NCBI GenBank assembly: GCA_913031205.1
Contig: CAJWEM010000006.1
Location: 1 to 57,255, forward strand
Reading direction: 5' to 3'
Length of the DNA: 57,255 bases
DNA from: an uncultured Gammaproteobacteria bacterium
GTDB taxonomy: Bacteria; Pseudomonadota; Gammaproteobacteria; Poriferisulfidales; GCA-002705445
The notes below the pieces were generated by a model. It ran no database searches. It saw nothing but the letters and a program-made list of their open reading frames with translations, and was not told the origin of the DNA. Shown piece after piece: positions 15,764 through 57,255 of this stretch. How positions within the stretch are numbered: position 1 is the first letter of the stretch; every line of letters starts with the position of its first letter. Position numbers and translations under genes: made by a program.

Positions 15764-16396
15764 ATGACCATATCAAAAGAAGAGTTAGAAAAAATAATGG
15801 AAAAGAAGGCTGGCATGCGAAGAGAAGCATATGACCGAAGAGCCGCTCAAGAAAATAAAGATGAAGTCAGTGCTCAAGCTTGTGAAAGGTTTATGGCATT
15901 ATCCGAGTACGAAAATGCAAATGTTATTATGTGGTATATAGACTGCAGATCAGAAACCAGAACAAAACCTCATTTGCTAAAGGAAGTTGAAAAAGGCGAG
16001 AAAAAAATTATAGTACCTTATTGTACAGAAGATGAAAATGGTGAAAATAAACTAGGTCTATGGCATATGACTAGTCTCGAAGAAATGGTCGTTGGAAAAT
16101 GGAATATATTAGAGCCTCCAAAAGAGCTTTGGGGAAATCCAGAAAAAGAAGTTTCTCCACAAGAATTGGATATGATAATGGTTCCTGGAACTGGATTTGA
16201 CAGATCGGGTGGAAGAATGGGCAATGGTCAAGGCTATTATGATAGAACAATGGAGCAAGTGAGGCCAGATTGTTCGCTGATTGCTTTATGTTACGAATCT
16301 CAACTGTTCGATGAAATTCTTGTCGCTCCTCATGATGTTTACATGGATAAAGTCGTTACAGAACTCGAAGTATACGAGGGAAAAGGAAGAGGTTAA
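15764..16396 (+). CDS. 5-formyltetrahydrofolate cyclo-ligase family protein
   Basis: 'IMVPGTGFDRSGGRMGNGQGYYDRTMEQ' 5-FCL/MTHFS motif; SD AAGGAG upstream. Confidence 0.88.
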   Translation: MTISKEELEKIMEKKAGMRREAYDRRAAQENKDEVSAQACERFMALSEYENANVIMWYIDCRSETRTKPHLLKEVEKGEKKIIVPYCTEDENGENKLGLWHMTSLEEMVVGKWNILEPPKELWGNPEKEVSPQELDMIMVPGTGFDRSGGRMGNGQGYYDRTMEQVRPDCSLIALCYESQLFDEILVAPHDVYMDKVVTELEVYEGKGRG

Positions 16397-16399
16397 CTG

Positions 16400-17317
16400 A
16401 TGACAGCGATAATTGATGACACATATGCTGAAGCATTTAAGAGTATGTACTCTGAGGTTCTAATTACAGCCATAAATAAAAAGTGGCTTGCTCATGCAGT
16501 AAATGCTGCAACCGGAAATGCTTCGAGTAGTATTCTTTGTGATTGTGAGGCTGGTTTAGATAGATATGTTGGGCCTGGAGGTGATGAAAGTGTTAACACG
16601 CCAGATGGAAGACCAGGAGCAATCATTCAACTACATATTCCTAAATTTTGGAAAGACCCAAAAAAACTTGAAAAAGCGGCGCTTGTAAGAATTAGCCAAA
16701 ACATTTTAACGTGTCCAACTGCGTCTTGTTTTAATCTTATTGAAGACGAAGAGCTATATTTCAAACTCGGAAAAAAGGTTGCGTTTTTTGGCAATAAGCA
16801 TCAAAAAAGAATTGAAAGACATGGACGAAAAATGTGGTGGATTCCAATTCTCGGTGGTGAATTTATACTTGACCGAAGGTTTGGTTATGCGGATGGATTA
16901 ATGGGAGGGAATTTGTGGTATTTTGGCAAAACCACTGAAGCAGCTCTTGAAGCGGCAGAAAAAGGAGTGGAAGCTATCTTACCTATTCCAAATGTCATAA
17001 CAACTTTCCCTGGTGGTATTGCTGGCAGTGGTTCTAAAGCTGGCAGTGATTATGATTTTACAATCGCAAGTACTTACGAAAAGTTTTGTCCCTTGCTTCA
17101 AAATGATCCAAATGTTGATGCTGGTCTTCCCGATGGTGTTAACTCCGTAATGGAAATTATAATGAACGGTAAGAATATGGAATCAATAATAGAAGCGACT
17201 CAAGCAGCTATTCAAGCGTCTAAAAATACAGAAGATTTATTAATGATATCTGCTGGAAACTATAATGGTAAGCTTGGTAAAAGTTTTATATATCTCCACC
17301 CCGAAAAACAACCATAA
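16400..17317 (+). CDS. Formylmethanofuran:tetrahydromethanopterin formyltransferase (Ftr/FhcD) homologue
   Basis: 'IDDTYAEAF', 'VLITAINKKWLAHAVNAATG', 'TPDGRPGAIIQ', 'FPGGIAGSGSKAGSDY', 'ISAGNYNGKLGK' match recalled archaeal/methylotroph Ftr motifs. Confidence 0.85.
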   Translation: MTAIIDDTYAEAFKSMYSEVLITAINKKWLAHAVNAATGNASSSILCDCEAGLDRYVGPGGDESVNTPDGRPGAIIQLHIPKFWKDPKKLEKAALVRISQNILTCPTASCFNLIEDEELYFKLGKKVAFFGNKHQKRIERHGRKMWWIPILGGEFILDRRFGYADGLMGGNLWYFGKTTEAALEAAEKGVEAILPIPNVITTFPGGIAGSGSKAGSDYDFTIASTYEKFCPLLQNDPNVDAGLPDGVNSVMEIIMNGKNMESIIEATQAAIQASKNTEDLLMISAGNYNGKLGKSFIYLHPEKQP

Positions 17318-17347
17318 AACTAAATTTTTGGATATGAAGGGAACTTT

Positions 17348-18223
17348 ATGAATTATACGGAAAAAGGAACTTTGATCTTAGATGGAAAGTTAGTTGCAAA
17401 AGAAATTCAAAGTAATATAAAAAAGAGAATCGAAGAATGTAATGTAGAAATTACTTTGGTGACTGTCCTTGTCGGAGACGATAAACCAAGTCAACTCTAT
17501 GTGAACAATAAACACAAGCAAGCAACTTCTTCTTCAATCAAATCAATAATGGTAAATCTTCCAGGTGATATATCTCAATCGGATTTAGAGAATAAAATTA
17601 AAGAGCTGGGTGATGACAATTCTGTTAATGGCATATTAATTCAGATGCCATTACCTAAAGGACTGAATGAAAACAATGTTATTGAAACTATACCACCAAA
17701 CAAGGATGTGGATGGCTTAAAGGAAAAAAACTTAGGTAGGCTTATTGTTGGTAATAATATTTTAAACCCTTGCACGCCGCTTGGTGTTATGAAGCTCATT
17801 CAATATTACAAACTTGAAACTAGTGGTAAAAAAGCATTAGTGATAGGAAGATCTAGATTGGTAGGTATGCCACAAGTTCTTATGTTAGGTTCGAAAGGTA
17901 TCGATTGCACAGTAACTCTAGCTCACTCAAGAACAAAAAATCTTGATGGTCTAATTAATGAGTCAGAGATTGTGGTGCCAGCTATCGGAGTTCCCAATAT
18001 GATAAATTCTAAAAATGTCCGAAAAGATGCAATTTTACTTGATGTAGGAATAAGTAGCGACGGGAAAGGTATTAAAGGAGATGTAGATTTTGAAGGTGTT
18101 GATGGGATTGCAAAAGCTGTTACTCCAATGCCTGGCGGCACTGGGCCAATGACAGTGGCTTGCCTGCTAGAAAATACAATGAAAGCTGCTGAACTTCAGG
18201 GTATAATCCCAAAAGAGAAGTAA
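17348..18223 (+). CDS. folD: Methylene-THF dehydrogenase/methenyl-THF cyclohydrolase
   Basis: 'YVNNKHKQA', 'GILIQMPLPKGL', 'PNKDVDGL', 'VTPMPGGTGPMTVACLLENT'. Confidence 0.93.
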   Translation: MNYTEKGTLILDGKLVAKEIQSNIKKRIEECNVEITLVTVLVGDDKPSQLYVNNKHKQATSSSIKSIMVNLPGDISQSDLENKIKELGDDNSVNGILIQMPLPKGLNENNVIETIPPNKDVDGLKEKNLGRLIVGNNILNPCTPLGVMKLIQYYKLETSGKKALVIGRSRLVGMPQVLMLGSKGIDCTVTLAHSRTKNLDGLINESEIVVPAIGVPNMINSKNVRKDAILLDVGISSDGKGIKGDVDFEGVDGIAKAVTPMPGGTGPMTVACLLENTMKAAELQGIIPKEK

Positions 18224-18358: not shown

Positions 18359-19597
18359 ATGCCTGGTCAAAAACTATCATACCCTGGAAGAAATTATCTA
18401 TTTGCTCCAGGCCCTACTCACATACCAACAGTCGTGCAAAATGCTATGAATGTTCCTATGGAAGATCACAGAGCTCCAGATTTCCCTGAACTTGTAAAAC
18501 CAATTCTCAGAGATTTAAAAAAGGTTTTTTTAACAAAAACAGGTACGCCTTTTATTTTTCCAGCAACTGGAACAGCAGGTTGGGAAGTAGCATTAGCAAA
18601 CACTTTATCGCCAGGAGATAAAATTCTTACTTCAAGATTTGGTCAGTTTAGTCACCTTTGGTACGACCTAGCCGTGCGTATTGGTCTAGAGGTTGAGCTG
18701 ATAGATACGAAATGGGGAAATGGTATAGAAATTGAAAAATTCAAAAAAGCTCTTGCGAAAGATAAAGATAAAAAAATTAAGGCCGTGGTTGTATGTCATA
18801 ATGAAACTGCAACTGGAGTAACGAGTGATATCGCTGGATTAAGAAAAGCAATGGACCAAGTCAAGCATCCTGCTTTATTAATGGTAGATGGTGTAAGTTC
18901 GATAGCGAGTATGGAATTTAGATTTGACAAGTGGAAAATTGATATTGCTGTAAGTGGCTCACAAAAAGGTTTTATGCTTCCAGCTGGACTAGCAATTCTA
19001 TGTTTTAGTAAAAAAGCTTTAGCAATGAGAAAAAATGCTAAATGTAAAAGATGCTTCCTCGATGTTCAAGATCATTTAAATACAAATAAAGATGGGTTTT
19101 TTCCTTATACTCCTCCAGTAAACTTATTACGCGGTTTAAGAGTCGCTATTGATCTACTTCTTGAAGAAGGGATGGAGAATGTTTTTTACAGGCATAAGAG
19201 ATTAGCAAATGGAGTTCGAGCGGCTATAAAGGCTTGGGGTCTAAGGTTAGCAGCCTCCTCTCCAAAATGGCATTCGGATACAGTTAGCGCCATTTGGTTG
19301 GAGCCAGGTTCAAAAAACAACCCTGATGGGAAAAAAGCCATTGAAGTAATTAATATTGCATACCATAGATATAATATTTCGCTTGGCGCAGGATTAACCC
19401 AAGTAGCAGGAAAAGTCTTTAGAATCGGTCATCTTGGTGATAACAATGAAACAAGAATGATGGCTGCTCTTGGTGGAGTTGAAATGGCCATGATTGATGC
19501 AGGAATAAAATTCACACCAGGAAGTGGAACAGGCGCTGCGGCAAAATATTGGACAAGTAATCCTGATAAAACTAAGAAAAAGAAAAAAAAGAAATAA
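18359..19597 (+). CDS. Serine-glyoxylate aminotransferase
   Basis: Class V aminotransferase: 'LFAPGPTHIPTVVQNAMNVPMEDHRAPDF', PLP lysine 'SGSQKGFMLPAG'. Confidence 0.92.
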   Translation: MPGQKLSYPGRNYLFAPGPTHIPTVVQNAMNVPMEDHRAPDFPELVKPILRDLKKVFLTKTGTPFIFPATGTAGWEVALANTLSPGDKILTSRFGQFSHLWYDLAVRIGLEVELIDTKWGNGIEIEKFKKALAKDKDKKIKAVVVCHNETATGVTSDIAGLRKAMDQVKHPALLMVDGVSSIASMEFRFDKWKIDIAVSGSQKGFMLPAGLAILCFSKKALAMRKNAKCKRCFLDVQDHLNTNKDGFFPYTPPVNLLRGLRVAIDLLLEEGMENVFYRHKRLANGVRAAIKAWGLRLAASSPKWHSDTVSAIWLEPGSKNNPDGKKAIEVINIAYHRYNISLGAGLTQVAGKVFRIGHLGDNNETRMMAALGGVEMAMIDAGIKFTPGSGTGAAAKYWTSNPDKTKKKKKKK

Positions 19598-19627
19598 AAA
19601 AAATTAAAAAACTTTAAGGGTGAAAAA

Positions 19628-20575
19628 ATGAGTCACAAAATATACGAACAAACTTCTAGAAGAGTTCAAAGGAGTGAGCTTGCGGTTCCAGGGTCCAACC
19701 CAAAGATGTTTGAAAAAGCATTGAATAGCGATGTTGATTTTGTTTTTTTAGATTTAGAAGATGCAGTGGCTCCAGATGATAAAGTCACAGCGAGAAAAAA
19801 TGTAATTGAAGCTCTTCAAGATTTAGATTGGCAAGGTAACGGAAAGACTGTTTCTGTTCGTATTAATAGTATTGACACACACTATATGTATCGAGACGTG
19901 ATTGAAGTAGTGGAGCAAGCTGGTGAACATCTTGATACTATTCTGCTTCCAAAAGCTGGAACACCCTCTGACATTTATATGCTTTCGGCATTGTTAAACC
20001 AAATTGAAACTTCAACAAGTCTTAAGAAACGTATTGGAATTGAGATCTTAATTGAGACGACTTTAGGTATGGCAAATGTAATGGAGATTGCAAAATCTGG
20101 TCGTGAAGAAAGATTAGAAGCAATGCATTTTGGAGTTGCCGATTATGCTGCAAGCTGCAGAGCACGCACAACTGTTATTGGTGGCTTAAATGAAGATTAT
20201 CCTGGAGACCAATGGCATGCCGATTTATCACAAATGTTAGTAGCGTGCAGAGCTTATGGATTAAGAGCGATTGATGGACCATTTGGTGATTTTAAAGATC
20301 CTGAAAGCTATACTTTAGCTGCAAAGAGAGCTGCTGCACTAGGCTATGAAGGAAAGTGGGCCATTCATCCTTCTCAGATTGAACTTGCAAATGCAGTATT
20401 TACTCCGCCAGCAGCAGAAGTGGATAAAGCAAAAAGAATATTAATAGCTTTAGATGAGGCTGCAAAAGCAGGTCAAGGTGCAGCTTCGTTAGATGGAAGA
20501 TTGATTGATGCTGCATCAGCAAAAATGGCTGAAAATATTGTTGAAACTGACAAAGCAATTAATTCAAAAAAGTAA
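19628..20575 (+). CDS. mcl: Malyl-CoA/beta-methylmalyl-CoA lyase
   Basis: HpcH/HpaI/CitE family: 'RSELAVPGSNPKMFEKALNSDVDFVFLDLEDAVAPDDK', 'KWAIHPSQI'. Confidence 0.92.
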   Translation: MSHKIYEQTSRRVQRSELAVPGSNPKMFEKALNSDVDFVFLDLEDAVAPDDKVTARKNVIEALQDLDWQGNGKTVSVRINSIDTHYMYRDVIEVVEQAGEHLDTILLPKAGTPSDIYMLSALLNQIETSTSLKKRIGIEILIETTLGMANVMEIAKSGREERLEAMHFGVADYAASCRARTTVIGGLNEDYPGDQWHADLSQMLVACRAYGLRAIDGPFGDFKDPESYTLAAKRAAALGYEGKWAIHPSQIELANAVFTPPAAEVDKAKRILIALDEAAKAGQGAASLDGRLIDAASAKMAENIVETDKAINSKK

Positions 20576-20592
20576 AAAAATAGGGGGTAACT

Positions 20593-21756
20593 TTGGACAT
20601 ACACGAATACCAAGCAAAAGAAATTTTATCAAACTTTAATGTTCAAACACTTGATGGAAAGTTAGCATTGAAAACTTCCGAGGCAGTTGCTGCTTTTAAT
20701 GAGTTAGAAACTAATGTATGTGTAGTAAAGGCACAAGTTCATTCTGGAGCAAGGGGTAAGGCTGGTGGAATTATTATTTGTAAAAGCGACGAAGAAGTAA
20801 GAACTGCATCTGAAAAGCTTCTTGGAACTTATTTAAAAACGATTCAAACTGGTGAGCAGGGAAAGTTAATAGAAAAACTTTATATTGAATCGGGATGCGA
20901 TATTGATAGAGAAATTTACTTAGCTTATGTAATGGATAGAGCAAAACAAAGAATTGTTATTGTTGCTTCAGCCGAAGGCGGTATGTCAATAGAGGAACTT
21001 GCGGCAGAAAAGCCTGAGGCAATTAAAAAAGTAGAAATTGATCCTGCTGTAGGTCTTACTGGCTTCCAAGCAAGAGAATTGAGTTTTGCGCTTGATTTCC
21101 CGAAAGAAGTTTTAGGTAAAGCTGTCCAGCTATTCATGGGTTGTTATAAGGCAATGGTTGAGCTTGATATGAATATGTTAGAGATTAACCCATTAGTTCT
21201 AACAAAAGACCAAAATCTTGTAGCTTTGGATGCAAAAATGAGTTTTGATGATAATGCTTTGTTTAGACACCCTGAAATAAACGAGTTAAATGACAACAGT
21301 CAAAAAGATAAAAGGGAAGTTGCCGCATCTGAGCATGATCTCAGTTACGTTGGCTTGGACGGAGATATTGGCTGTATGATTAATGGTGCTGGTCTGGCAA
21401 TGGCCACAATGGATATGATTAAATATTGCGGTGGTGAGCCAGCAAACTTTTTAGATATTGGCGGTGGCGCATCTCCTGAAAGAGTTGGAAAAGCTTTCGA
21501 ATTAGTGCTAGCTGACGATAATGTTAAAGCTATGCTTGTAAATGTTTATGCTGGAATAAATAGATGTGATTGGATTGCAGAAGGTTTAGTAAAAATAATT
21601 CCAACAGTTGATTTAAAAATTCCATTGATCGTAAGATTATCAGGTACAAATGTTGAAGAGGGTTTAAAAATAATAAAAGATAGTGGTCTTCCGATTATAT
21701 TGGCAGATACTTTGAAAGACGCTGCAGAAAAAGCAGTTGAAGCAGCAAAAAAATAA
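20593..21756 (+). CDS. mtkA: Malate-CoA ligase beta subunit (SucC-like)
   Basis: 'MDIHEYQAKEILSNFNV' ATP-grasp, 'NPLVLTKDQNLVALDAKM', context between mcl and mtkB; TTG start. Confidence 0.85.
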   Translation: MDIHEYQAKEILSNFNVQTLDGKLALKTSEAVAAFNELETNVCVVKAQVHSGARGKAGGIIICKSDEEVRTASEKLLGTYLKTIQTGEQGKLIEKLYIESGCDIDREIYLAYVMDRAKQRIVIVASAEGGMSIEELAAEKPEAIKKVEIDPAVGLTGFQARELSFALDFPKEVLGKAVQLFMGCYKAMVELDMNMLEINPLVLTKDQNLVALDAKMSFDDNALFRHPEINELNDNSQKDKREVAASEHDLSYVGLDGDIGCMINGAGLAMATMDMIKYCGGEPANFLDIGGGASPERVGKAFELVLADDNVKAMLVNVYAGINRCDWIAEGLVKIIPTVDLKIPLIVRLSGTNVEEGLKIIKDSGLPIILADTLKDAAEKAVEAAKK

Positions 21757-21770
21757 TTTAGGGGATAGAT

Positions 21771-22661
21771 ATGTCAGTTTTATTGAATAAAAATACAAAA
21801 GTTTTAGTGCAAGGAATTACAGGGAGAATTGGAAACTTTCATGCTGAAGAAATGATCGCTTATGGTACAAATGTTGTTGCTGGGGTAACTCCTGGTAAAG
21901 GCGGCACAAAACATCTAGACAGACCAGTTTTTAATACAGTAAAAGAAGCCGTAGATGCTACTGGTGCGGAGGCAACAATAGTATTTGTCCCAGCTGTTGC
22001 TGCAGCTGATGGAATAATGGAAGCAGCAGATGCGGGCATCAAGTATGCTGTATCAATTACTGACGGTATCCCTGCTCACGACATGATGAGAGTTAAAAGA
22101 TATATGTTGAGATATAAGAAAGAAGAAAAAATGATTTTAACTGGTCCAAACTGCGCAGGTACAATTACTCCAGGTGAAGCAATGATTGGAATTATGCCTG
22201 GTCATATTTACACTTCAGGGGATGTAGGTGTAATAGGTAGATCAGGTACCTTAGGATACGAAGCAGCGTCACAAATGAAAGCGGAAGGAATTGGAATTTC
22301 AACAAGTGTTGGAATTGGTGGTGATCCTATTAACGGAAGTTCTCATAAAGATATACTTGAGCTTTTTAATGAAGATGAAAAAACAAAAGCTGTAATGTTA
22401 ATTGGTGAGATTGGTGGCCCACAAGAAGCGGAGGCCGCAGAATATGTAAAAAGTAATATGAAAAAACCAGTAGTTGCATATATAGCTGGTCTAACAGCAC
22501 CTAAAGGAAGAAGAATGGGTCATGCTGGTGCAATAGTTTCTGGTAAAGGTGAAAGTGCTGCAGAAAAAGTTGAAATGCTTAAAGAAGCAGGTATTCATAT
22601 TATTCCCAATCCATCAGAAATGGGAAGTAAAATGAAAGAAGTAATTGAAAAACATTTATAA
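21771..22661 (+). CDS. mtkB: Malate-CoA ligase alpha subunit (SucD-like)
   Basis: '[35 protein letters not shown]', '[23 protein letters not shown]', 'GHAGAIVSG'. Confidence 0.88.
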
Positions 22662-22678
22662 ATTATTGGGGTGAAAAA

Positions 22679-23650
22679 ATGAGTAAACCAAAAGTATTAG
22701 TAACAAGAAAATGGCCTGCTGAAGTTGAAGCAGAATTAAAAGAAAAATATGATGTAACTCTTAATGAAAAAGATATCGCTTTAACCATTCCAGAATTACA
22801 AGAAGCATTTCAAAACTATGATTGTGTTTGCCCTACTGTTACCGACCCCATAAATGAAGAAGTATTATCTGTATCAAATAAAAAAGCGAAAATCATAGCA
22901 AGCTTTGGAGTTGGGTTTAATCACATAGATCTAGACGCTGCAAAAAAAGAGAATTTAGTTGTTACAAATACTCCAGAAGTTCTTACTGATTGTACTGCCG
23001 ATATTGCTATGGCTTTACTTCTCAGTGTCGCAAGACGAACTGGTGAAGGTGAAAGAGAATTAAGAGCTGGTAAATGGGCTGGTTGGAGACCTACTCATCT
23101 CCGAGGAACCCAAGTAACAGGAAAAACTTTAGGATGTATCGGTTTTGGAAGAATTGCTCAAGCAACTGCTGATCGCGCTCATTTTGGATTTGGGATGAAA
23201 ATTATATTTTCTGACCCATATATGCCATCCGACGAAGTGATAAAAAAATATAATGCAACTCCTTGTAGCAGTGTTGAAGAAGTTTTGGAAAAAGCAGATT
23301 TTGTTTCCATTCATTGCCCTGGCGGCGAAAGCACTTATCATTTAATGAATAAAGAAAGAATTGGGCTTATGAAAAAAGGAGCATATTTAATTAACTCTGC
23401 AAGAGGCGATGTAATTGATAACGATGCTCTAATTGATGCTTTAAAAAATAATAAAATAGCAGGGGCTGGGCTAGATGTGTTTGAAGGTGAGCCAGAGCTT
23501 AATCCTGGATTTTTAGATTGCGAAAATGCTGTTCTTCTTCCTCATTTAGGAAGTGCGTCAATTGAGACAAGGATTGCAATGGGGATGCGTGTTCTTGAAA
23601 ACATGGAAGCATATTATAATGATAAAGAACCAGGAGACAGGGTAGTCTAA
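22679..23650 (+). CDS. D-2-hydroxyacid dehydrogenase, likely hydroxypyruvate/glyoxylate reductase
   Basis: 'FGVGFNHIDLDAAKKENLVVTNTPEVLTDCTADIAMALLL', 'GKTLGCIGFGRIAQATADRA'; serine-cycle context. Confidence 0.87.
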   Translation: MSKPKVLVTRKWPAEVEAELKEKYDVTLNEKDIALTIPELQEAFQNYDCVCPTVTDPINEEVLSVSNKKAKIIASFGVGFNHIDLDAAKKENLVVTNTPEVLTDCTADIAMALLLSVARRTGEGERELRAGKWAGWRPTHLRGTQVTGKTLGCIGFGRIAQATADRAHFGFGMKIIFSDPYMPSDEVIKKYNATPCSSVEEVLEKADFVSIHCPGGESTYHLMNKERIGLMKKGAYLINSARGDVIDNDALIDALKNNKIAGAGLDVFEGEPELNPGFLDCENAVLLPHLGSASIETRIAMGMRVLENMEAYYNDKEPGDRVV

Positions 23651-55176: not shown

Positions 55177-55410
55177 ATGAATAATGATCCCATAATATCT
55201 TCTTTAAATAAAGAGTTAGACGAACTAGAAGCAAAAATAGATCAGTTGTCTAAGAAATATTTAGATTTAAAAAAAGAAAACTCCTTGCTTAAGGAAAGAC
55301 AGGAAAGAGAAGTCTCTGAAAAATTTAAAATCAAAGAAAAAAATCAAAAAGTTCAAAGTAAGGTCGAAGGGATTATAAATAGGCTTCGATCTTTGGAGTA
55401 TAATCAATAA
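55177..55410 (+). CDS. ZapB-like/TIGR02449-type coiled-coil protein
   Basis: 'SLNKELDELEAKIDQLSKKYLDLKKENSLLKERQ'; position between pepP and zapA. Confidence 0.65.
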   Translation: MNNDPIISSLNKELDELEAKIDQLSKKYLDLKKENSLLKERQEREVSEKFKIKEKNQKVQSKVEGIINRLRSLEYNQ

Positions 55411-55712
55411 TGGAAAATCAAGGAAAAAAGATTCCGGTTACTGTTAAAATTTTAAATCAAAACTATGACGTTTTCTGTTTCGAGAATGAGAAAGAAACGC
55501 TAATAAAGTCAGCAGAGCTTCTAAATGACAAAATGATGAAGACAAAAGCTGAAGGGAAAACAATAGGTCTGGATAGAATAGCAGTAATCTCTGCACTTAA
55601 TTTTGCAAAAGATTCTTTAAGTCATAAAGATATAATAAATTCTCTTAATTCAACTTCAAAACAAAAGTTATCAGAACTAAATAATAAAATTGATAATTTG
55701 ATTTTAGATTAA
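55410..55712 (+). CDS. zapA: Cell division protein ZapA
   Basis: 'VTVKILNQNYDVFCFENEKETLIKSAELLNDKMMK'; precedes 6S RNA. Confidence 0.88.
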   Translation: MENQGKKIPVTVKILNQNYDVFCFENEKETLIKSAELLNDKMMKTKAEGKTIGLDRIAVISALNFAKDSLSHKDIINSLNSTSKQKLSELNNKIDNLILD

Positions 55713-55761
55713 TTTTTATATTTTATCCACTAGTTAAATTATTTTTAATTTGATATATTTG

Positions 55762-55946
55762 AAAATAGTACTGGTGTACTCGATACTGTTATTAAATCTT
55801 TGTTCCTAATTTATAAACAGGGATTGAGTATCTTAAAGTAGGTGCGCACGCCTAATTATTTAGGAAGCCTAATGCTTTAGTATCAAACCCACTTGAACTC
55901 AAGGGTTCAAGGAAAATTAATAGTAACGGTATACCGGTATTACCTA
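55762..55946 (+). ncRNA. ssrS: 6S RNA
   Basis: Position after zapA; closing stem 55767-55780/55928-55941 (with GU pairs); hairpin CTTGAAC(892-898)/GTTCAAG(905-911) matching the ACCUUGAACCAAGGGUUCAAGG signature. Confidence 0.85.
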
Positions 55947-55956
55947 GTAATTCATC

Positions 55957-56049
55957 ATGACATCATCATATTCTTTAATATTTAAAAAAAATAAATTAAA
56001 AAAAAAGAAAAAATCACTTAAAAATAAAAAAATTTTAAAAAAAAACTAG
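55957..56049 (+). CDS. Lysine-rich micro-ORF (30 aa), coding status uncertain
   Basis: MTSSYSLIFKKNKLKKKKKSLKNKKILKKN (13 Lys of 30) read by hand; may be chance in A-rich DNA. Confidence 0.25.
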   Translation: MTSSYSLIFKKNKLKKKKKSLKNKKILKKN

Positions 56050-56100
56050 GAAATGTTAAAAAAACGTTAAAAAATGAATAAAAAGTTAAAAAAATGTTTG

Positions 56101-56243
56101 AAGAAACTATTCGGCGTGTTAGAACCTACGAAGCACTCTTAGGAGAGAAAAAGACACCAATTGTGGAGCCATCAACTGAATGCTCAAACTCTCCGGTGAA
56201 TATGATTTCGTCTGATAGCATTGACGCAACTGCCTTCACCTAA
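56101..56243 (+). other. Candidate structured RNA element or 49-aa ORF in GC-richer island
   Basis: Nested stems ACGAA(128-132)/TTCGT(207-211), GGAGAG(142-147)/CTCTCC(189-194), GAGC(166-169)/GCTC(182-185), all +56000; also an open frame 56094-56243. Confidence 0.35.
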
Positions 56244-56300
56244 TTAAACCTATTACCCCCTATTCTACCCTATTAAGCACAAAAAGGCAACAGCTCAACC

Positions 56301-56552
56301 CTATAAAAACCCGATTAATTTCCTACTTTTTTTAGAAAGATGATAGCTATCAATGGATCTTTGTAGTTTATGCCTTTTTTGGATTAATTTTTTGTTTATA
56401 GGGGCTAGCTCATGAACAGCTTTATTAAATCCAGACCAAAATCTCTTACTTGAAATACTGGTTCCTCTCAAAACTTCATTATTTACAAAGTCAAATAATA
56501 ACTTTGATACTGATAAATCGCATATTTTTATAAATTTTTCCTGTTTTTTCAT
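56301..56552 (-). pseudogene. glcB: N-terminal remnant of malate synthase G
   Basis: 'LLFDFVNNEVLRGTSISSKRFWSGFNKAVHELAPINKKLIQKRHKLQRSIDSYH' aligns with GlcB N-terminus '[53 protein letters not shown]'; stops at 83 aa. Confidence 0.8.
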
Positions 56553-56635
56553 AAACTTATCAAATATTTTAATAATTTTTATTTTATCTATTTTATTGCC
56601 AATTGAAAATTGATAAAGAAATATTTATAAAATAA

Positions 56636-57255
56636 ATGAAAAATTACTTAAATTTCGAAACAAACATCAAAGAACTTGAGGCAGAATTAGATAATCTTAA
56701 AGATCCGTTTAATAAAGAGGGATTAACCGAGGTGGACACAAATAAAATTTCAAATTTGCAAGAAGAAATAGATAGCAAATTAAGAGATATTTACTCAAAT
56801 CTAGATCCATGGCAGAAAACAATGGTTGCCCGACATGAGGAAAGACCAAAGTCAAAATTTTTTATTGATAATCTATTTTCAGATTTCATTCCATTAAGTG
56901 GAGACAGATATTATGGTGAGGATAAATCAGTAATTACTGGATTTGGAAAATTCAAGGATATTTCAGTTTTAGTAATTGGGCAAGAAAAAGGAGACAGTCT
57001 TCAAACAAGGATTGAGAGAAACTTTGGAATGATGAAACCAGAGGGATATAGAAAAACAGTTAGACTAATGAGGCTTGCAGATAAATTTAATTTGCCAATT
57101 ATTTTATTTATAGATACTCCCGGCGCTTATCCTGGAGTTGGAGCAGAGGAGAGGGGTCAAGCTGAAGCAATAGCAAGATCAATAGAATGCTCAATGTCGG
57201 TTGGTGTGCCTACAATTTCAATTATTATTGGTGAGGGAGGATCTGGTGGCGCAAT
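56636..57255 (+). CDS. accA: Acetyl-CoA carboxylase carboxyltransferase alpha subunit (partial, runs off window end)
   Basis: 'MKNYLNFETNIKELEAELDNL...FIDTPGAYPGVGAEERGQAEAIARSIECSMSVGVPTISIIIGEGGSGGA'. Confidence 0.97.
   Translation, partial: MKNYLNFETNIKELEAELDNLKDPFNKEGLTEVDTNKISNLQEEIDSKLRDIYSNLDPWQKTMVARHEERPKSKFFIDNLFSDFIPLSGDRYYGEDKSVITGFGKFKDISVLVIGQEKGDSLQTRIERNFGMMKPEGYRKTVRLMRLADKFNLPIILFIDTPGAYPGVGAEERGQAEAIARSIECSMSVGVPTISIIIGEGGSGGA

Follow-up and report, generated by a model that had tools for sequence, protein, structure and literature searches.

A divergent formyltransferase and the 5-formyl-folate enzyme that accompanies it in uncultured Gammaproteobacteria and Planctomycetes: a predicted formyl bridge to tetrahydrofolate

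Serine-cycle methylotrophy has been described as branching mainly at formate, with formate-tetrahydrofolate (H4F) ligase (FtfL) catalysing the first step dedicated to assimilation, and a delta-ftfL mutant did not grow on methanol (PMC4169470). In Methylorubrum extorquens and Methyloversatilis, the FtfL-Fch-MtdA bridge joins H4MPT/methanofuran (MFR) oxidation to methylene-H4F for the serine cycle, goes through free formate and 10-formyl-H4F, and spends one ATP at the H4F-loading stage. Formyltransferases of the Ftr/FhcD type (1ftr, 2fhj, 6s6y) have two Pfam domains over their full length, and their Glu245 (M. kandleri numbering) is reportedly catalytic, according to the work on 2fhj and 2fhk. 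The 5-formyl-H4F cyclo-ligase (MTHFS; 5-FCL) matches PF01812 and TIGR02727 and carries a GxGxGYYDR motif and a conserved Glu.

The window, that is, the whole 57,255-nucleotide stretch of DNA analysed, carried a 5-FCL, an Ftr homologue (Ftr2) and a FolD (Table 1). The initial annotation had described these as tightly spaced at the head of a serine-cycle operon, and the open reading frames agreed with that description. Intergenic gaps were 3 bp (5-FCL to Ftr2) and 30 bp (Ftr2 to FolD); the serine-cycle set started 135 bp after FolD and spanned 18359-23650 on the same strand. The GC content was ~37% in the trio and serine-cycle genes vs 30% in the downstream stretch. The top model of the aminotransferase in the Sga position was BhcA (aspartate-glyoxylate aminotransferase), with a score under its cut-off.

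Table 1. Coordinates of the trio and the adjoining serine-cycle genes in the window
Feature	Position	Strand	Length, domains and model scores
5-FCL	15764..16396	+	210 aa; PF01812 128 bits, TIGR02727 well over cut-off
Ftr2	16400..17317	+	305 aa; PF01913+PF02741
FolD	17348..18223	+	291 aa; PF00763+PF02882
Serine-glyoxylate aminotransferase (Sga) by context; class-V aminotransferase, BhcA-like	18359..19597	+	PF00266; BhcA model 555.7 bits, cut-off 650
Malyl-CoA lyase (Mcl) by context; HpcH/CitE-family lyase	19628..20575	+	PF03328
Malate-CoA ligase beta subunit (MtkA)	20593..21756	+	NF010647 626 bits, cut-off 604
Malate/succinate-CoA ligase alpha subunit (MtkB)	21771..22661	+	NF004230 over cut-off
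Hydroxypyruvate reductase (Hpr) by context; D-2-hydroxyacid dehydrogenase	22679..23650	+	PF02826/PF00389; top model glyoxylate reductase, score under its cut-off

Like Ftr/FhcD, Ftr2 had both Pfam domains at full length (FTR, 140.5 bits, cut-off 27; FTR_C, 161.8 bits, cut-off 25), and it exceeded the NCBIfam FhcD equivalog cut-off narrowly (297.2 vs 292.6 bits). Most family-invariant residues were kept, and E252 aligned with Glu245 of 1ftr and was invariant in both the Ftr2 and the canonical sets. Unlike Ftr/FhcD, Ftr2 had two insertions, around residues 58-64 and 80-85, as well as residues particular to its clade (including R137, R140, R159 and R160), and stood beside a 5-FCL. A tree built from 157 non-redundant locus sequences plus four solved structures placed the 82 Ftr2 sequences in one clade and the 75 canonical bacterial Ftr, together with Methylorubrum FhcD (6s6y), in another; by this tree, Ftr2 and FhcD are deeply separated paralogues. 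The paralogue was sharply separated, because a profile of Ftr2 scored 607 bits with the window and at most 247 bits with any other Ftr over 399 Pseudomonadota genomes; with this profile, Ftr2 was seen in no other genome of the sample. The AlphaFold2 model of Ftr2 (mean pLDDT 63, pTM 0.64) was too weak for a comparison of sites.

No FhcABC was found inside the 7 kb flanks of Ftr2 loci, and Ftr2 lay outside both the FhcD clade and, unlike FhcD, any fhc/fwd cluster (fhcABCD included) in the neighbourhoods seen. At least one further FTR_C match was present in 44/44 genomes reached through Ftr2 loci (only as a fragment in G064 and broken by a stop in G085), which together with the separate clade ruled out Ftr2 as the canonical FhcD subunit of an Fhc whose other genes are missing. 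Ftr2 is predicted to be a formyl-MFR:H4F N5-formyltransferase.

The trio was contiguous in 18 of the 19 genomes of the window's order, and the remaining genome (G003, 79% complete) was without all three genes. Two FTR_C matches were present in 17 of these genomes, one strong (~180-206 bits) and one weak (~157-163 bits); the window's genome (G000) had the weak match only and G003 the strong one only. The weak match was the window's gene, here named Ftr2. The single 5-FCL and the sole over-cut-off FolD common to the genomes of the order directly adjoined Ftr2 in 18/19, with one additional partial FolD match in G006.

A scan of the GTDB collection returned 80 Ftr2 loci, 35 gammaproteobacterial and 45 planctomycete, the latter including loci merely assigned to that group and a few with unspecific titles. 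The gammaproteobacterial loci belonged to uncultured 'Thiothrix' single cells, Ca. Porisulfidus, UBA4575, UBA1858 and one Methylococcaceae bin. In this group 5-FCL was immediately upstream of Ftr2 in 34/35 loci (the sole exception started at a contig end; median gap 6 bp, stop codon counted), FolD followed Ftr2 directly in 28/35, and Sga was within 6.5 kb of Ftr2 in 30/35. Planctomycete loci had an upstream 5-FCL in 18/45 and none adjacent in 27/45, and neither FolD nor Sga was close to Ftr2 in any of the 45. The cultured planctomycete Zavarzinella formosa also carries Ftr2 (L185). The initial annotation's proposal of a conserved unit was thus borne out within the order, and the 5-FCL/Ftr2 pair recurred in Gammaproteobacteria outside it as well as in Planctomycetes; the conservation of the arrangement ruled out a chance neighbourhood. 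Among uncultured Gammaproteobacteria of marine and sponge-associated origin, as in many Planctomycetes, a second, divergent formyltransferase is carried together with a 5-formyl-folate enzyme of its own. No paper describing this pairing was found in the open-access library.

Six gammaproteobacterial loci (L144, L148, L150, L151, L152 and L159) had the order 5-FCL-Ftr2-Sga, without FolD between. A small conserved ORF (~150-270 aa) preceded Ftr2 in L175, L177, L180, L181, L183 and L184, loci of some Planctomycetes without an adjacent 5-FCL. An apparent 5-FCL-Ftr2 fusion in L163 was rejected, with the match coordinates placing the two in different frames.

Like MTHFS, the 5-FCL of the trio was over the cut-offs of its models (27 bits for PF01812) and had the conserved Glu and the GxGxGYYDR motif, as GNGQGYYDR. 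It was the single 5-FCL match in the window's genome. The 5-FCLs paired with Ftr2 fell in one clade (52/52, support 0.95), and sampled members were 43-89% identical to that of the window; identity was 25-29% with two 5-FCLs from Gammaproteobacteria lacking Ftr2 and with Bacillus and Aquifex structures, the comparison set outside the pair being small (five sequences). Unlike those five, the trio 5-FCL belonged to a clade of its own, here always beside Ftr2, and this clade appears to be specific to Ftr2 neighbourhoods. That a dedicated 5-FCL accompanies Ftr2 in two phyla was the strongest single argument for joint function. At the far end of the window (55410-57253), zapA, 6S RNA (55765-55944) and accA were found, with no 5-FCL after the 6S RNA, unlike in E. 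coli.

Both FolD domains passed their cut-offs (C-domain, 182 bits vs 27), and FolD matched solved FolD structures (best E 2.7e-60). The active-site residues, read by eye, were present: Tyr-x3-Lys (YVNNK), Gln (ILIQMP) and Asp (KDVDG). This FolD was the single over-cut-off copy in the window's genome.

The initial annotation had implied that the H4MPT/MFR genes were missing and had left the formyl donor unnamed, and neither point was supported. Mch, whose presence the initial annotation had listed among the refuting signs, occurred in 18/19 genomes of the order, including the window's own, so a version without the H4MPT pathway was rejected; the bridge thereby gained an obvious donor, formyl-MFR. 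Relatives had the whole formylmethanofuran cluster, including a second, canonical Ftr, separate from the trio and predicted to be the source of formyl-MFR, which with Mch points to formyl-MFR as the likely donor. A search of the window's 93.6%-complete assembly did not recover fhcABC. The full cluster was present in a genome of the same genus (G001) with trio proteins near-identical to the window's, and therefore the gap was likely one of assembly.

Formate-H4F ligase (FTHFS) was over cut-off in 0/19 genomes of the order, where three weak hits were short and partial; this agreed with the co-occurrence that the initial annotation had proposed between the trio and the absence of ftfL. FTHFS was also absent from the single-contig genomes G019, G110 and G258. 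No PurU was identified among the PF00551 (Formyl_trans_N) matches, whose frame lengths fitted Fmt and PurN. Of 387 evenly sampled Gammaproteobacteria, 50 had an Ftr, and FTHFS was over cut-off in 2/11 of those with Ftr2 and in 31/39 of those without it (Fisher p = 0.0004), Ftr2 status being assigned from the match pattern and not from a tree. Counted by family, the anticorrelation was weaker (p = 0.06), and part of it was therefore shared ancestry. Several genomes were without both FTHFS and Ftr2 and may use other assimilation cycles. Against a bridge that takes the place of the ligase, FTHFS was present in three Gammaproteobacteria with Ftr2 (G152, G285 and G076) and in 6/32 Ftr2 Planctomycetes; the 27 planctomycete loci that lack a neighbouring 5-FCL also count against it. 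Two FTHFS genes of one genus (G151:C1:83704-85341 and G284:C95:3446-5086) each had a single in-frame TGA.

The sequences show that the genes are there and conserved, that a second Ftr occurs alongside them and that FTHFS is lacking; on this basis, we consider it probable that the trio acts as a direct formyl bridge from methanofuran/H4MPT oxidation to H4F, in place of formate-H4F ligase. Formaldehyde would be oxidised on H4MPT and canonical Ftr would load the formyl group onto (methylo)furan. Ftr2 would then convert formyl-MFR and H4F to 5-formyl-H4F and MFR, and 5-FCL, by its predicted activity, would convert 5-formyl-H4F and ATP to 5,10-methenyl-H4F; this ATP-driven step would set the direction and pull the Ftr2 transfer forward. 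FolD would reduce methenyl-H4F, the resulting methylene-H4F feeding GlyA and the serine cycle, and the cyclohydrolase side of FolD would supply 10-formyl-H4F for Fmt and PurN. Like the FtfL-Fch-MtdA bridge, the trio would join H4MPT/MFR oxidation to methylene-H4F with one ATP at the H4F-loading stage, which would equal the ATP cost of FtfL; unlike it, the trio is predicted to go through N5-formyl-H4F, bypassing free formate and the ligase that the known bridge needs. We infer H4F as the acceptor, formyl-MFR as the donor and the direction of flux. The N5-formyl-H4F bridge into the serine cycle proposed by the initial annotation remained the best-supported reading, with the trio conserved and FTHFS lacking, and was probably right in substance; what changed was the donor, which is probably formyl-MFR.

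In Methylorubrum, the polyglutamate tail of methylofuran binds the cofactor tightly to Fhc (PMC8141765), and a free Ftr2 would therefore have to gain access to it somehow, which counts against the bridge; unbound and MyfB-bound methylofuran pools also exist (PMC8141765). A conserved lineage that lacks FTHFS and links an Ftr paralogue to a 5-FCL suggests a second MFR/H4MPT-H4F junction. If this is true, the orphan Ftr of many Planctomycetes would gain a testable role, synthetic methylotrophy a compact part, and the C1 reconstructions of uncultured bacteria would be corrected.

An alternative, which we regard as unlikely, would make Ftr2 a conventional formyl-MFR:H4MPT isozyme, such as a free Ftr accompanying a complex-bound FhcD, with 5-FCL and FolD as housekeeping folate genes in a C1 regulon. 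The narrow pass over the FhcD equivalog cut-off, the retained catalytic Glu and most other family-invariant residues, and the greater similarity of Ftr2 to archaeal Ftr (221 bits) than to Methylorubrum FhcD (162 bits) are consistent with such an isozyme, but it leaves unexplained why FTHFS is lost, why Ftr2 is so tightly paired with a special 5-FCL clade in two phyla, and by what route C1 units enter H4F for the serine cycle. The loss of FtfL is likewise not accounted for if Ftr2 works in reverse, moving the formyl group of N5-formyl-H4F to MFR while 5-FCL recycles, so that serine hydroxymethyltransferase (SHMT) is protected from N5-formyl-H4F. SHMT is known to form N5-formyl-H4F as a by-product and to be inhibited by it, and Ftr reactions are reversible; in most bacteria, however, the ATP-driven 5-FCL is enough by itself, and Ftr2 and 5-FCL would compete for one pool, which makes salvage of this kind very improbable.

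The low identity of the paired 5-FCLs to others, together with the matching of PF01812 by archaeal controls too, would also suit a clade acting on 5-formyl-H4MPT instead of 5-formyl-H4F, the pair then being an ATP-driven step within the H4MPT branch. We find this scarcely credible: Mch is present and does that conversion without ATP, the gene directly next in most gammaproteobacterial loci is FolD, and H4F would be left without an input.

Returning to the bridge from formyl-MFR to H4F, its upstream enzyme differed among the genomes that carry Ftr2. With respect to the distinction between Fwd/Fmd and hydrolytic Fhc, relatives of the window carried FwdB-FhcA-FhcD-FhcC, FwdD, a ferredoxin and an oxidoreductase. 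The 'FhcB' of all five family clusters read (G001, G004, G007, G009 and G011) was full length and matched archaeal FwdB, with a Cys-rich N-terminus and an SVCHGPS motif, and the same was found in genomes G012, G013 and G019 of the order. In G001 it matched 5t5i at E 2.6e-111 and 6s6y_B at 5.1e-12. FwdD, a 2[4Fe-4S] ferredoxin and a pyridine-nucleotide oxidoreductase adjoined the FwdB-like gene, and the cluster of the window's family is predicted to be a redox formyl-MFR dehydrogenase; with an FwdB-like 'FhcB', formate may therefore never be released. A formate-free C1 economy in this family is a tentative reading, held with more doubt than confidence, in which the redox FwdB-type enzyme, with ferredoxin and oxidoreductase, would interconvert formyl-MFR and CO2, and Ftr2/5-FCL would tap formyl-MFR for H4F and the serine cycle. 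If so, the pathway would branch at formyl-MFR rather than at formate, and the same route would in principle be open to CO2.

Hydrolase-type FhcB was present in other Ftr2 genomes (G015, G110, G258, G189, G152, G391, G062 and G065), and Ftr2 was therefore independent of the redox form. G187 and G311 had both cluster types, redox Fwd and hydrolase Fhc, without Ftr2. A strict rule by which redox Fwd means Ftr2 was rejected on both grounds.

A 2016 review had Proteobacteria without fwdD (PMC5020050). Gammaproteobacterial formyl-MFR clusters of the redox type, with FwdB, FwdD, ferredoxin and oxidoreductase, were observed in L036 (5292-12259), L037, L041, L043 and L047, and also in L049, L289, L290, L295 and L296. 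In L031, L328, L329, L336 and L337, redox-type Fwd and hydrolase-type Fhc clusters were neighbours on one contig.
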